Positions 39,183-42,308 of a stretch of DNA of 64,000 nucleotides are shown piece after piece. The DNA is from Gammaproteobacteria bacterium (GTDB taxonomy: Bacteria; Pseudomonadota; Gammaproteobacteria; Enterobacterales; Alteromonadaceae), in contig JAFLDV010000003.1 in assembly GCA_017302255.1 (NCBI GenBank), positions 1 to 64,000 on the forward strand, written 5' to 3'. The notes under the pieces were generated by a model. That model searched no databases. It was not told the DNA's origin and worked only from the letters and a program-made list of their open reading frames with translations. The position numbers and the translations under genes are program-made. Positions within the stretch are counted from its first letter, which is position 1, and the number at the start of each line of letters is the position of its first letter.

Positions 39183-40151
39183 ATGGATTATAATTTAATT
39201 GTCCCCGCTTTCATTGCCCTTGCCGCGCTGATCACCATCGCCAAAGCTATAGTAATAGTGCCGCAAAACACTGCGCTTTTAGTAGAACGGCTTGGTAAGT
39301 ACCACAGCACTTTAACTGCGGGTATGCAATTTGTTCTGCCTTATATTGACCGTATCGCGTATCGCGTATCGCTAAAAGAAAGTGCCATCGACATTCCAAG
39401 TCAGGCTGCGATCACCAAAGACAATATCAGTTTGACCATCGATGGTGTTTTATATATTAAAGTTATGGAGCCATACAAAGCATCCTATGGTATTGATAAC
39501 TATAAATATGCTGTTATTCAGTTAGCGCAAACATCAATGCGCTCTGAGCTAGGTAAACTCGATTTAGATAAAACCTTTGAAGAGCGCGATAGCTTAAACG
39601 CTAAAATTATTAGTGCCATTAACCAAGCATCTGCGGCTTGGGGTGTGCAAGTCATGCGTTATGAGATCAAGGACATTAATCCACCAGGATCTGTGCTTGA
39701 TGCCATGGAAAAACAAATGCGCGCCGAACGGGAAAAACGTGCGGCAATTTTAGATTCTGAAGGGAAAAGACAAGCTGCTATTAACATGGCAGAAGGTAAT
39801 CGTCAGGCCACGGTATTGGCGGCTGAAGCTCAGCAACAATCAACTTTGTTAGCGGCAGAAGCGGAAAAGCAACAGCAAGTATTAAAAGCTGAAGGTGAAG
39901 CCCAGTCTATTGAATTAGTCGCTGCTGCCCGCGCTAAAGCCTTGACCTTGATTGGTGAAGCCGCAGCAACGCCACAAGGTAAAGCAGCTGTACAATTGGA
40001 TTTGGCAACAGAAGCTATTGCTGCGAAAAAGGCGATTGCTCGCGAATCGACTGTTGTGCTGATGGATAATGACAAATCCAATACCGGTAACACTGTCGCT
40101 GAAGCTTTAGGTGTGATCGCTGCAATCCAAAAGAGTGGCAATTTTAACTAA
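39183..40151 (+). CDS. SPFH/band 7 membrane protein (QmcA/stomatin-like)
   Basis: A 322-residue protein with an N-terminal membrane anchor (residues 5-25), the SPFH domain (about 27-190: VPQNTALLVERLGKYHSTLTAGMQFVLPYIDRI, EIKDINPP) and a long Ala/Glu/Gln-rich coiled coil (about 195-290). Such proteins form large membrane cages with NfeD partners. The next gene is an NfeD protein, which supports a two-protein complex. Confidence 0.9.
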   Translation: MDYNLIVPAFIALAALITIAKAIVIVPQNTALLVERLGKYHSTLTAGMQFVLPYIDRIAYRVSLKESAIDIPSQAAITKDNISLTIDGVLYIKVMEPYKASYGIDNYKYAVIQLAQTSMRSELGKLDLDKTFEERDSLNAKIISAINQASAAWGVQVMRYEIKDINPPGSVLDAMEKQMRAEREKRAAILDSEGKRQAAINMAEGNRQATVLAAEAQQQSTLLAAEAEKQQQVLKAEGEAQSIELVAAARAKALTLIGEAAATPQGKAAVQLDLATEAIAAKKAIARESTVVLMDNDKSNTGNTVAEALGVIAAIQKSGNFN

Positions 40152-40160
40152 GGAATGCAC

Positions 40161-40622
40161 ATGAGTTTTACTTCCGCTTTATTATTGCTTGCGGTGCTTT
40201 GCCTGATTGCCCTGCCCTTTGCAGTGCCGGGGTTACTTGAACTGTTGTTAGCATTAACCATCGCAGCACTATTAAACGCAATGTTAGTGTGGATGGGTAT
40301 AGTTCCAGAACAAAGCCATGTGATTTTGCTGACATTGGCTGGCACAACCATTGTCAGCGCAGTGTTAATTTGGAAACCACTGCGCCGTTTGCAAAAAAGT
40401 GGCGAGAAACTTGAAGAAGATAGTGGTATCTCCGATTTTGTTGGCACAGTGCTTTACCTAAATGCACCGCTGAGCAAAAGCGAAGTCGGCCAGATCGATT
40501 TTTCTGGAGTAAGTTGGCAGGTTCGCTTAAGTGCCGATTCGACTCAGGAGCTGTTACCTGCGGGCGCTGCAGTTAAAATTGTCAGCGCTACTGTTGGTTT
40601 ACTCGTCGTCACTAGCGTTTAG
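40161..40622 (+). CDS. NfeD-family membrane protein
   Basis: A 153-residue NfeD1-type protein: two or three N-terminal helices (MSFTSALLLLAVLCLIALPFAVPGLLELLLAL) and a C-terminal OB-fold (about residues 75-153, ISDFVGTVLYLNAPLSKSEVGQIDFSGVSWQVRLS). It partners SPFH proteins. I chose ATG 40161 because AAGGA is 6 bases upstream; ATG 40155 directly abuts it. It lies 10 bp after the SPFH gene. Confidence 0.88.
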   Translation: MSFTSALLLLAVLCLIALPFAVPGLLELLLALTIAALLNAMLVWMGIVPEQSHVILLTLAGTTIVSAVLIWKPLRRLQKSGEKLEEDSGISDFVGTVLYLNAPLSKSEVGQIDFSGVSWQVRLSADSTQELLPAGAAVKIVSATVGLLVVTSV

Positions 40623-40673: not shown

Positions 40674-40743
40674 TTCCCAAGCTTAGAAAAACTCTTTTTA
40701 GCCCATATCCTTTCACAAGCCATTTTTATGTTAGCTAAATGAC

Positions 40744-40810
40744 TTACATATTTAAATGTAATTAAATTTCCTTACATTTGAAATTGTAAGCGTATTGAAT
40801 TACAATTCAA
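40744..40810 (+). promoter_or_regulatory. Promoter and operator array of the SatD/DUF3307 operon
   Basis: Two 18-bp inverted repeats of TTACA-N8-TGTAA, at 40744-40761 (TTACATATTTAAATGTAA) and 40772-40789 (TTACATTTGAAATTGTAA), have centres 28 bp apart. A third partial one (TTACA half site at 40800) is centred another 28 bp on. A separate 16-bp palindrome, TTGAATTACAATTCAA, lies at 40795-40810. A promoter TTGAAA-N17-TACAAT (40778-40806) overlaps sites 2 and 3, so binding would occlude it. A 118-base leader follows. Confidence 0.65.
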
Positions 40811-40923
40811 TTGAACACAAAACTCTCAAACATAACCACGAACAGTGTTAGAGCTATCGGGTTGCCAAAACGTGAACAATTGATTTTATGTTCTAAGATC
40901 ACTGAAAACATGAGGACGGAAGC

Positions 40924-41544
40924 ATGGGCTGGAGTGCAGTCATCACGGGCGATTTGGTGCGTTCATCAAAAATGGCTCCCGATCGTTACAACTTAATTTT
41001 GCAGCAACTCGAACAAACCTTAGCAACGCTCAGCTCAAACCACACTGATTTCAGCATCTATCGCGGCGATGGTTTTCAGCTATATTTACCAAATCCTGAG
41101 CAATCGATAACGGCTGCACTATTGATTCGCTTAAACTTAATCTCTCACGACGCCGATTGTCGTTTGAGTATTGGTCTGGGAAATATTGATAGCAAACGGT
41201 CACAAATCAGTATGTCAACCGGCGAAGCCTTTACCCTCTCAGGCCGCGGCTTGGAAGCACTAAAAGATGTGTATTGGTCTTTGCAATTACCGCAATCGCT
41301 GTCGGTTGACTGGCAACTCTTATTACGCTTTGCTGATGTTTTATTGCAACAGATGACGGCAAGACAAGCGCAGGTGTTGTATGGTTATTTAACTGGCGAT
41401 AATCCCTCGCATCAGCAGTTGGCAGATCAAATGCAAACTTCGCGGGCGAATATCACCCAATTGCTCAACCAAGCGCATTACACATTGTTCCAAGATTTAT
41501 TAAGTCAATTTAAGCGATTTTTAGGCGAACAAGGAAAGTTATGA
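40924..41544 (+). CDS. SatD-family protein with C-terminal HTH
   Basis: A 206-residue cytoplasmic protein. Residues about 1-115 match the SatD pattern (WSAVITGDLVRSSKM, SIYRGDGFQLYL, LSIGLGNID), a fold of unknown reaction that resembles nucleotide-cyclase domains. Residues about 150-200 look like a winged or sigma-4-type HTH (GDNPSHQQLADQMQTSRANITQLLNQAHYTLFQDLLSQ), which could bind the operator array before the gene. It overlaps the next gene by 4 bases (ATGA). Function unknown. Confidence 0.7.
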   Translation: MGWSAVITGDLVRSSKMAPDRYNLILQQLEQTLATLSSNHTDFSIYRGDGFQLYLPNPEQSITAALLIRLNLISHDADCRLSIGLGNIDSKRSQISMSTGEAFTLSGRGLEALKDVYWSLQLPQSLSVDWQLLLRFADVLLQQMTARQAQVLYGYLTGDNPSHQQLADQMQTSRANITQLLNQAHYTLFQDLLSQFKRFLGEQGKL

Positions 41545-42308
41545 CGGATCTCCCTTTATTGATATTGCTGCTAGTCGGTCATATTTTAGGTGACTTCTAC
41601 CTACAACCGAAAACGTGGGTGGATGATCGGATCGCTAAACACTTTCATTCAGTAAAACTGCGCTATCACGTTTTAGTACACACAGTGCTAACTGCGCTGG
41701 TGTTATGTTATTGGAGCTGGCTACAAGGCACCAGCCTATCACTAATGAGTATTAGCTACTGTTGTGGATTGGTTGCTGCGAGTCACTTTGTCATCGACGC
41801 CGCAAAATCTTATGCCAAAGCCACAGTGTGGCCATTTGTTCTTGATCAAATAGCGCATGGCGCGATCTTGGTTTGTGTCTTTTGTTTTTTCACCGAGCAA
41901 TGGTCGGTACTATGCGAAACATTCGCTAAGACGCCATCATTCACGGTGTTGGCGGTGCTCTTAGGTTATCTGTTAGCCATGACACCGACATCCATTCTGG
42001 TTGGTTTATTATTAAGAAGCTGGCACTCCGCTATTCCTGAAAGCTCACGCACGCAAAGCTTAAGCGATGCCGGACATTACATCGGAATATTAGAACGATT
42101 GTTGATAGTGACTTTTGTTGTGCTAAACGAACTAGGCGGCGTCGGTTTTCTACTCGCGGCGAAATCAATATTTCGCTTTGGCGATTTAACTCGAAGCACC
42201 GACAAAAAACTTACCGAGTATGTGCTGCTTGGCACACTACTTAGTGTCGGCTGCAGTTTGGCGATCGGCTTAATCTTAAGGTTTATTATCAATACAAACC
42301 TTGCATGA
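41541..42308 (+). CDS. DUF3307 membrane protein
   Basis: A 255-residue integral membrane protein with about seven hydrophobic segments. The N-terminal DUF3307 motif is LLLVGHILGDFYLQPKTWVDDR, with a conserved HxxxD (GHILGDF) and later HFVIDAAKSY and DQIAHGAIL, a spread His/Asp pattern like membrane-bound enzymes or transporters. The ATGA overlap with the SatD gene implies they act together. Function unknown. Confidence 0.72.
   Translation: MTDLPLLILLLVGHILGDFYLQPKTWVDDRIAKHFHSVKLRYHVLVHTVLTALVLCYWSWLQGTSLSLMSISYCCGLVAASHFVIDAAKSYAKATVWPFVLDQIAHGAILVCVFCFFTEQWSVLCETFAKTPSFTVLAVLLGYLLAMTPTSILVGLLLRSWHSAIPESSRTQSLSDAGHYIGILERLLIVTFVVLNELGGVGFLLAAKSIFRFGDLTRSTDKKLTEYVLLGTLLSVGCSLAIGLILRFIINTNLA

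Follow-up and report, generated by a model that had tools for sequence, protein, structure and literature searches.

A satD-like gene and an overlapping DUF3307 gene in the 64,000-nucleotide stretch of DNA analysed here (the window, part of an Alteromonadaceae contig) are preceded by a regular ladder of alternating half-sites, and computational comparison of homologous loci makes it very likely that SatD regulates its own transcription through this ladder. We further consider it likely that the repressor core of the locus is a self-contained, autorepressed module, through which a ligand may control a membrane effector. The repeats, their 28-bp spacing, the promoter and the gene overlap had been pointed out in an earlier note, and all are present in the sequence. 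The features of the locus are as follows.

40730-40733, plus strand: degenerate core GTTA, left half of unit 1 (one mismatch to GTAA, predicted position)
40744-40747, minus strand: core TTAC, right half of unit 1 (from the sequence)
40758-40761, plus strand: core GTAA, left half of unit 2 (from the sequence)
40772-40775, minus strand: core TTAC, right half of unit 2 (from the sequence)
40786-40789, plus strand: core GTAA, left half of unit 3 (from the sequence)
40800-40803, minus strand: core TTAC, right half of unit 3, overlapping the -10 hexamer (from the sequence)
40778-40806, plus strand: predicted sigma-70-like promoter TTGAAA-N17-TACAAT inside the ladder (best-scoring upstream site)
40924-41544, plus strand: candidate SatD-like autoregulator, 206 aa (ORF, profiles, AlphaFold model, fold search)
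41443-41472, plus strand: predicted recognition helix of SatD, residues 174-183 (AlphaFold helix; columns 174, 176 and 173 rank first to third)
41541-42308, plus strand: DUF3307 protein, 255 aa, all-helical, probably membrane-bound (PF11750 and predicted structure)
42048-42305, plus strand: C-terminal domain of the partner, residues 170-255, SatD-linked (IGxxER...AAKSxFRFGDL...TEY; invariant residues; stand-alone in L168 and L169)

Two perfect TTACA-N8-TGTAA dyads, TTACATATTTAAATGTAA at 40744-40761 (centre 40752.5) and TTACATTTGAAATTGTAA at 40772-40789 (centre 40780.5), are followed by a third half-site, TTACA at 40800-40804, with its (half) centre at 40808.5; the pitch of all three centres is exactly 28 bp. 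The predicted promoter hexamers, TTGAAA at 40778-40783 and TACAAT at 40801-40806, make up the best match of the upstream region in a matrix-based sigma-70 scan. The stop codon of satD and the start of the DUF3307 gene overlap in the sequence ATGA. Directly upstream of the ladder, positions 39183-40622 encode an SPFH/band 7 protein and then an NfeD-like protein that scores below the Pfam cut-off.

Single dyads occur at chance level. With at most one mismatch, TTACA-N8-TGTAA was observed three times in the window versus 2.78 expected, and exact dyads were found at four places in the genome versus five for a reversed-pattern control, which rules out the single dyad as a signal. Unlike single dyads, the array is a significant element: TTAC-N10-GTAA-N10-TTAC has three matches in 4,031,574 bases, all of them inside the window array, and the reversed-pattern control has one. 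No second three-core site was found elsewhere in the 4.03-Mb genome, and a wider regulon was rejected on this ground. The source genome contains one satD match and one DUF3307 match. A leader RNA element was likewise rejected, as no Rfam match reached the gathering score.

The upstream regions (260 bases per locus) of SatD homologues were then compared using 152 loci, reduced to 88 at 80% protein identity. Exact 6-mer direct repeats occurred at a lag of 28 in 67 of the 88 loci (6.5 expected), at a lag of 56 in 38 (6.3 expected) and at a lag of 29 in 24 (7.1 expected). A free ladder search was performed with four alternately oriented 5-mers, pitches of 26-30 and spacings of 7-21, for a maximum score of 20. 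Four-rung ladders scoring at least 19 were obtained in 73/88 SatD loci and in 0/88 shuffles, with one single-letter shuffle per locus. Among the 73 ladder loci the pitch was 28 in 57 and 29 in 16, and never 26, 27 or 30. The remaining 15 loci scored below 19, including L135 and L141 (16). No ladder was found upstream of 210 control genes, counting those with 260 bases available, or at five DUF3307 loci lacking SatD; a sixth such locus, L184, could not be placed. The upstream alignment proposed in the earlier note thus showed the array to be kept upstream of most SatD homologues, with a pitch of 28 or 29 bp and varying letters.

Loci of Bacteroidota, one Methanoculleus MAG and loci from a further class of the phylum have ladders as well, spelled with other letters. 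Ten further loci came from the phylum sample; six scored at least 19, and L161, L164, L165 and L166 scored 16-17. The six include two loci with the shortest partner and two from family f60, which we take to be Alphaproteobacteria, another class of the phylum. The score of 19 at L168 was also reached by one of ten shuffles of that locus. The seven plasmid copies examined scored 20 (Enterobacter kobei and Segatella), 18 (pEC34A and the Klebsiella 4.4-kb plasmid), and 17 and 16 (Salinivibrio and Sphingomonas, no ladder), while in the P. fragi plasmid copy the best array (19) lies just beyond the annotated start.

The regular element in the window consists of alternating 4-bp cores every 14 bp, at 40730, 40744, 40758, 40772, 40786 and 40800 (span 40730-40803). 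Across the homologues, 71 loci could be placed in one register; the other 17 of the 88 lack a registered half-site (15 scoring below 19, two with even spacing). The registered loci have cores 14 bp apart, six of them in 39/71 with a range of 4-13, where end cores were allowed one mismatch of four. Six-core ladders begin with the GTAA-like orientation and end with the TTAC-like one in 31 of 39 cases, and of the 15 registered ladders with a 29-bp pitch, 12 have the additional base at the junction of two GTAA-N10-TTAC units. Both observations replace the TTACA-N8-TGTAA dyad by GTAA-N10-TTAC as the probable operator unit. This phasing is likely rather than certain: four-core ladders lean the opposite way, with a GTAA-like start in only 5/14 and the opposite orientation in 9/14. 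Under it, the window contains units at 40730/40744 (GTTA/TTAC, the first core being degenerate), 40758/40772 and 40786/40800 (both GTAA/TTAC). Of the operators first proposed, the array therefore stands and the dyad as its unit does not, and the third half-site is probably the right half of a third unit.

The cores vary with lineage. By locus, the 71 registered ladders have GTAA (26), GCAA (15), CTAA (7), GTGA (6), GTAT (6) and seven rarer cores. Half-site distance, controlled for whole-protein distance, correlates best with SatD columns 174, 176 and 173 of 206, which form the start of the recognition helix predicted by AlphaFold (174-183). Arginine at 174 is accompanied by G at core position 1 in 50/50 loci, and Q174 by G (6, all of them the GTAT loci), A (5) or C (1); Q175 is accompanied by C at core position 2 in 18/18, and the GTGA loci have S175 in 6/6. 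Half-sites were oriented to resemble [GC][TC]AA, which biases this letter table towards agreement, and the locus pairs are non-independent, many agreements descending from few changes. On a tree of the N-terminal domain alone, 11 core changes are needed. Among the independent pairs listed for G/R174, three agree, none disagree and one is uninformative, too few for significance in a sign test. The dozen half-site cores with their recognition helices constitute a natural data set.

Because the half-site letters follow the helix of SatD itself, autoregulation is the simplest reading, and the earlier claim of autoregulation is strengthened by the comparison. A different regulator might instead bind the ladder, whose position upstream of satD would then be incidental; we regard this as highly improbable, given that the letters track SatD's own helix, that the five DUF3307 loci lacking SatD have no ladders and that the genome holds no second three-core site.

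Ladder and best sigma-70-like site overlap in 56/71 loci, compared with 30.7 expected from shuffles, which bears out the promoter overlap noted earlier and favours repression by occlusion. The ladder could in principle be an activator site instead. Computationally, the locus displays the pattern of an autoregulated HTH repressor operon, namely operator-like sites over its own predicted promoter that covary with its own recognition helix. SatD would bind the three GTAA-N10-TTAC units, at 28-bp pitch over its own promoter, probably as one dimer per unit, and bound SatD would keep satD and the downstream membrane gene at low expression. Its N-terminal domain most likely binds a metal-nucleotide ligand that would loosen or tighten DNA binding. 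The sole output would be the DUF3307 protein, whose C-terminal half is a conserved, SatD-linked putative effector that may act at the membrane. This gives a concrete, testable regulatory mechanism for a widespread gene pair.

The predicted structure of SatD (pLDDT 95) comprises a palm domain of approximately residues 1-122 and a C-terminal helix-turn-helix of approximately residues 128-206. The suggestion of a cyclase-like N-terminal fold found support from two sides: the domain resembles the class III adenylyl cyclase Ma1120 in a Foldseek search (4wp9, E = 2.3e-4, TM 0.43/0.52) and by sequence profile (E = 1e-3, residues 6-91). Palms of GGEEF/GGDEF proteins and GTP cyclohydrolase III score nearly as well as Ma1120. 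Among 87 SatD sequences, a set from which L011 was left out, D10, G48, D49, Q52, S106 and G107 are invariant, and R47 and S14 occur in 86. We infer that D10 and D49 correspond to the two metal-binding aspartates of class III cyclases. R108, present in 57/87 sequences, presumably corresponds to the catalytic arginine of the Asn/Arg pair of these enzymes, an assignment based on an alignment by eye. We read the N-terminal domain as a metal-nucleotide sensor that may have lost its enzymatic activity; on this reading a one-component repressor has probably taken over a class III cyclase fold for sensing. Resemblance in fold is no proof that a ligand is bound.

Alternatively, SatD could still be enzymatically active and supply its membrane partner with a cyclic nucleotide, in the manner of Pycsar, while the HTH provides feedback control. 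The class III cyclase fold and the invariant and nearly invariant residues listed above are compatible with such an activity; the minimal domain of about 122 residues, the incomplete conservation of R108 and a partner with neither a recognised nucleotide-binding domain nor a fold match argue against it, and we consider it quite improbable.

The window SatD has no match to the Pfam SatD family PF16264 at E≤1 and is thus below the cut-off of 29 bits. Of the 87 aligned relatives, 40 match PF16264 at E≤0.01 (as distinct from the 29-bit cut-off), the best at 7.7e-10, indicating homology through intermediates. In 150 genomes of the phylum the only PF16264 match reached 21.8 bits.

The DUF3307 partner of the window matches PF11750 with 82.6 bits (cut-off 23; E = 3e-23) over residues 6-130 only. 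Its model is all-helical (pLDDT 92), and its hydrophobic helices suggest that it is probably membrane-bound. Searches of the PDB revealed no relative by sequence (E up to 1) or by fold (best E = 1.6). In 82 partners, a set from which L092 and L114 were left out for a doubtful start or end, the invariant residues are G178, I181, G182, E185, R186, K208, R212, E226, Y227, G231 and S235. The SatD partners at L168 (1471-2487) and L169 (983-2109) match only profile positions 131-246 and 125-241, and the short DUF3307 proteins without SatD at L188 and L189 match only positions 4-111 and 4-113. From these two kinds of truncated protein it follows that the C-terminal half is the SatD-linked part, and the conserved core of SatD partners is a domain outside the Pfam definition of DUF3307. 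At L011 (727-1305) the partner ORF matches the profile only from position 41, its first part being missing or in another frame. The partner on pEC34A is approximately 77 residues longer than that of the window. Short DUF3307 proteins have been described in phages (PMC8504454).

SatD homologues were found in 18/60 near genomes (including the source genome), in 53/345 genomes of the order and in 17/349 of the phylum. A scan of named genomes yielded 252 SatD proteins, of which 80 were kept, from Alteromonadales, Vibrionales, Bacteroidota, Methanoculleus, Phycisphaerae and Opitutia, and closely similar versions occur in five families. The pair is accessory and has probably been transferred between lineages.

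Linkage of the two genes, for which the earlier note proposed a survey, holds within the order; outside it DUF3307 often occurs without SatD. In the order, 46 of 47 genomes with DUF3307 also have SatD, adjacent in the listed coordinates apart from one case where the contig breaks; the remaining genome, G295, has a 22-bit match with a stop. In the phylum sample, 14/30 DUF3307 genomes have SatD and 16/30 do not. Seen from the SatD side, a partner is adjacent in 87 of the 88 loci: downstream with the IGxxER signature in 84, recognised by profile in L011 and L097, and upstream in L142. At L132 neither signature nor profile detected a partner. The order is reversed, with the partner upstream of satD, in the Methanoculleus MAG loci L142 (1835-2776) and L149 (1837-2784). 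In family f60, DUF3307 genes without SatD (L180, L183, L186) follow a gene for a protein ending in WGM(D/E)MMSDEARLELGFM or similar, and such an ending also lies just upstream of satD at L163-L167, as if satD and its ladder had been gained or lost in one slot.

Plasmid searches returned nine and twelve records, five of them shared, corresponding to 16 of 72,556 plasmids, and DUF3307 lies beside SatD in all seven plasmids examined. Small ColE1-like plasmids from E. coli and Klebsiella carry the pairs at L195 (1792-3481, pEC34A) and L196 (362-1937). On the 3,770-bp E. coli plasmid pEC34A, the pair accompanies Rop, MobA and a small hypothetical gene, according to a PLSDB gene table that may be incomplete; it is the evident cargo of this 3.8-kb plasmid, which points to a function within reach of a two-gene experiment. 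In Klebsiella, SatD matches occur on five plasmids of 3,770 bp, and a 4,424-bp plasmid carries DUF3307 beside SatD. In 5,426 complete E. coli genomes no place covers 80% of the pEC34A pair, the matches listed comprising its first ~140 bases only. No SatD-DUF3307 pair was found in phage collections, and a phage origin was not upheld.

Two readings of the function were weighed. In the first, the pair would work like an addiction or defence system: SatD would be at once an antitoxin-like repressor and a sensor of nucleotides, and the membrane protein would become harmful when SatD releases, for example upon infection or plasmid loss. In the second, it serves membrane or acid-stress homeostasis, SatD sensing a nucleotide stress signal and setting the level of a protective membrane protein. 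The small plasmids of E. coli and Klebsiella, with the pair beside replication and mobilisation genes on pEC34A, favour the former, and so minimal a carrier speaks against a housekeeping role. Further plasmid contexts point the same way: the 10.3-kb P. fragi plasmid also carries toxin-antitoxin genes, the neighbours of the pair on the Sphingomonas insulae plasmid (L194, 1944-9434) bear the annotations Pycsar effector, nucleotide cyclase and TIR domain, and on the E. kobei plasmid the pair follows an AAA ATPase, a helicase and an IS3 transposase. The patchy distribution, with similar versions in five families, is also in line with such a module. In S. pyogenes, satD is accessory (178/249 genomes) and yet scored essential in transposon data (PMC11323703); the essentiality may, however, be polar.

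Against addiction or defence, neither SatD nor the partner has a PADLOC match (0 families at E≤1), and the pair was not found in the complete E. coli genomes (at 80% coverage) or the phage collections described above. The neighbourhood, judged by ORF sizes alone, looks conserved in two families, which also speaks against that reading and for homeostasis. A sample of chromosomal neighbours (125 of 249 ORFs) matched 48 PADLOC families, compared with 13 for a sample of 129 of 226 control ORFs; the test sample omits the ORFs of most SatD proteins and partners, the whole of L230-L236 and, for L224-L226 and L229, some ORFs that were near-duplicates or further ones, and keeps two DUF3307 ORFs. Among the 25 families listed of the 48, most match the same four proteins, apparently helicases (four members match DEAD/Helicase_C); what remains is single matches for a type IV restriction enzyme and two for AriA. 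Defence islands as a general context were not upheld by this comparison.

The name sat, for secretion and acid tolerance of Streptococcus (PMC11323703), agrees with a role in acid stress, as does the Orn/Lys/Arg decarboxylase gene that adjoins the pair in the window; however, among 18 loci with 1.5-kb flanks the start of this decarboxylase was found only at L001. Taking both sides together, we entertain homeostasis as a possible, though not a probable, reading and consider addiction or defence possible and rather unlikely. A bolder proposal takes the pair for an undescribed mobile module. Its SatD would be a degenerate class III cyclase that has become a nucleotide sensor and is joined to an HTH; through an evolvable three-dimer operator ladder it would restrain the membrane effector until a nucleotide signal changes, and on plasmids and at accessory loci the whole would serve for addiction or against phages. 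Taken in full, this is unlikely.

The locus had been proposed as undescribed, which is correct in part. SatD already has a family name, taken from the sat operon of Streptococcus (PMC11323703), although the window protein itself is unmatched to it in Pfam, and S. suis satD is listed as a DNA-binding protein and target of a small RNA (PMC12005413). The literature searched on SatD/DUF3307, the SatD family and the sat operon yielded nothing on the operator ladder, on SatD autoregulation or on DUF3307 function.

Compared with known systems, the window SatD is similar in length to the full-length PF16264 profile (211 positions) and differs in being unmatched by it at E≤1. With the class III cyclases Ma1120 and Rv1900c, SatD shares the palm fold, the profile match and the invariant aspartate pair; it differs in being shorter, in its fusion to a C-terminal HTH and in the lack of conservation of R108. 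The partner scores above the PF11750 cut-off as a DUF3307 protein, whereas the Pfam domain includes neither its 11 invariant residues nor the SatD-linked half. Like Pycsar and toxin-antitoxin modules, the pair consists of two genes, for a DNA-binding protein with a nucleotide fold and a putative effector, and is found in some mobile contexts; in contrast to them, it has no PADLOC match and its partner has no recognised nucleotide-binding domain.
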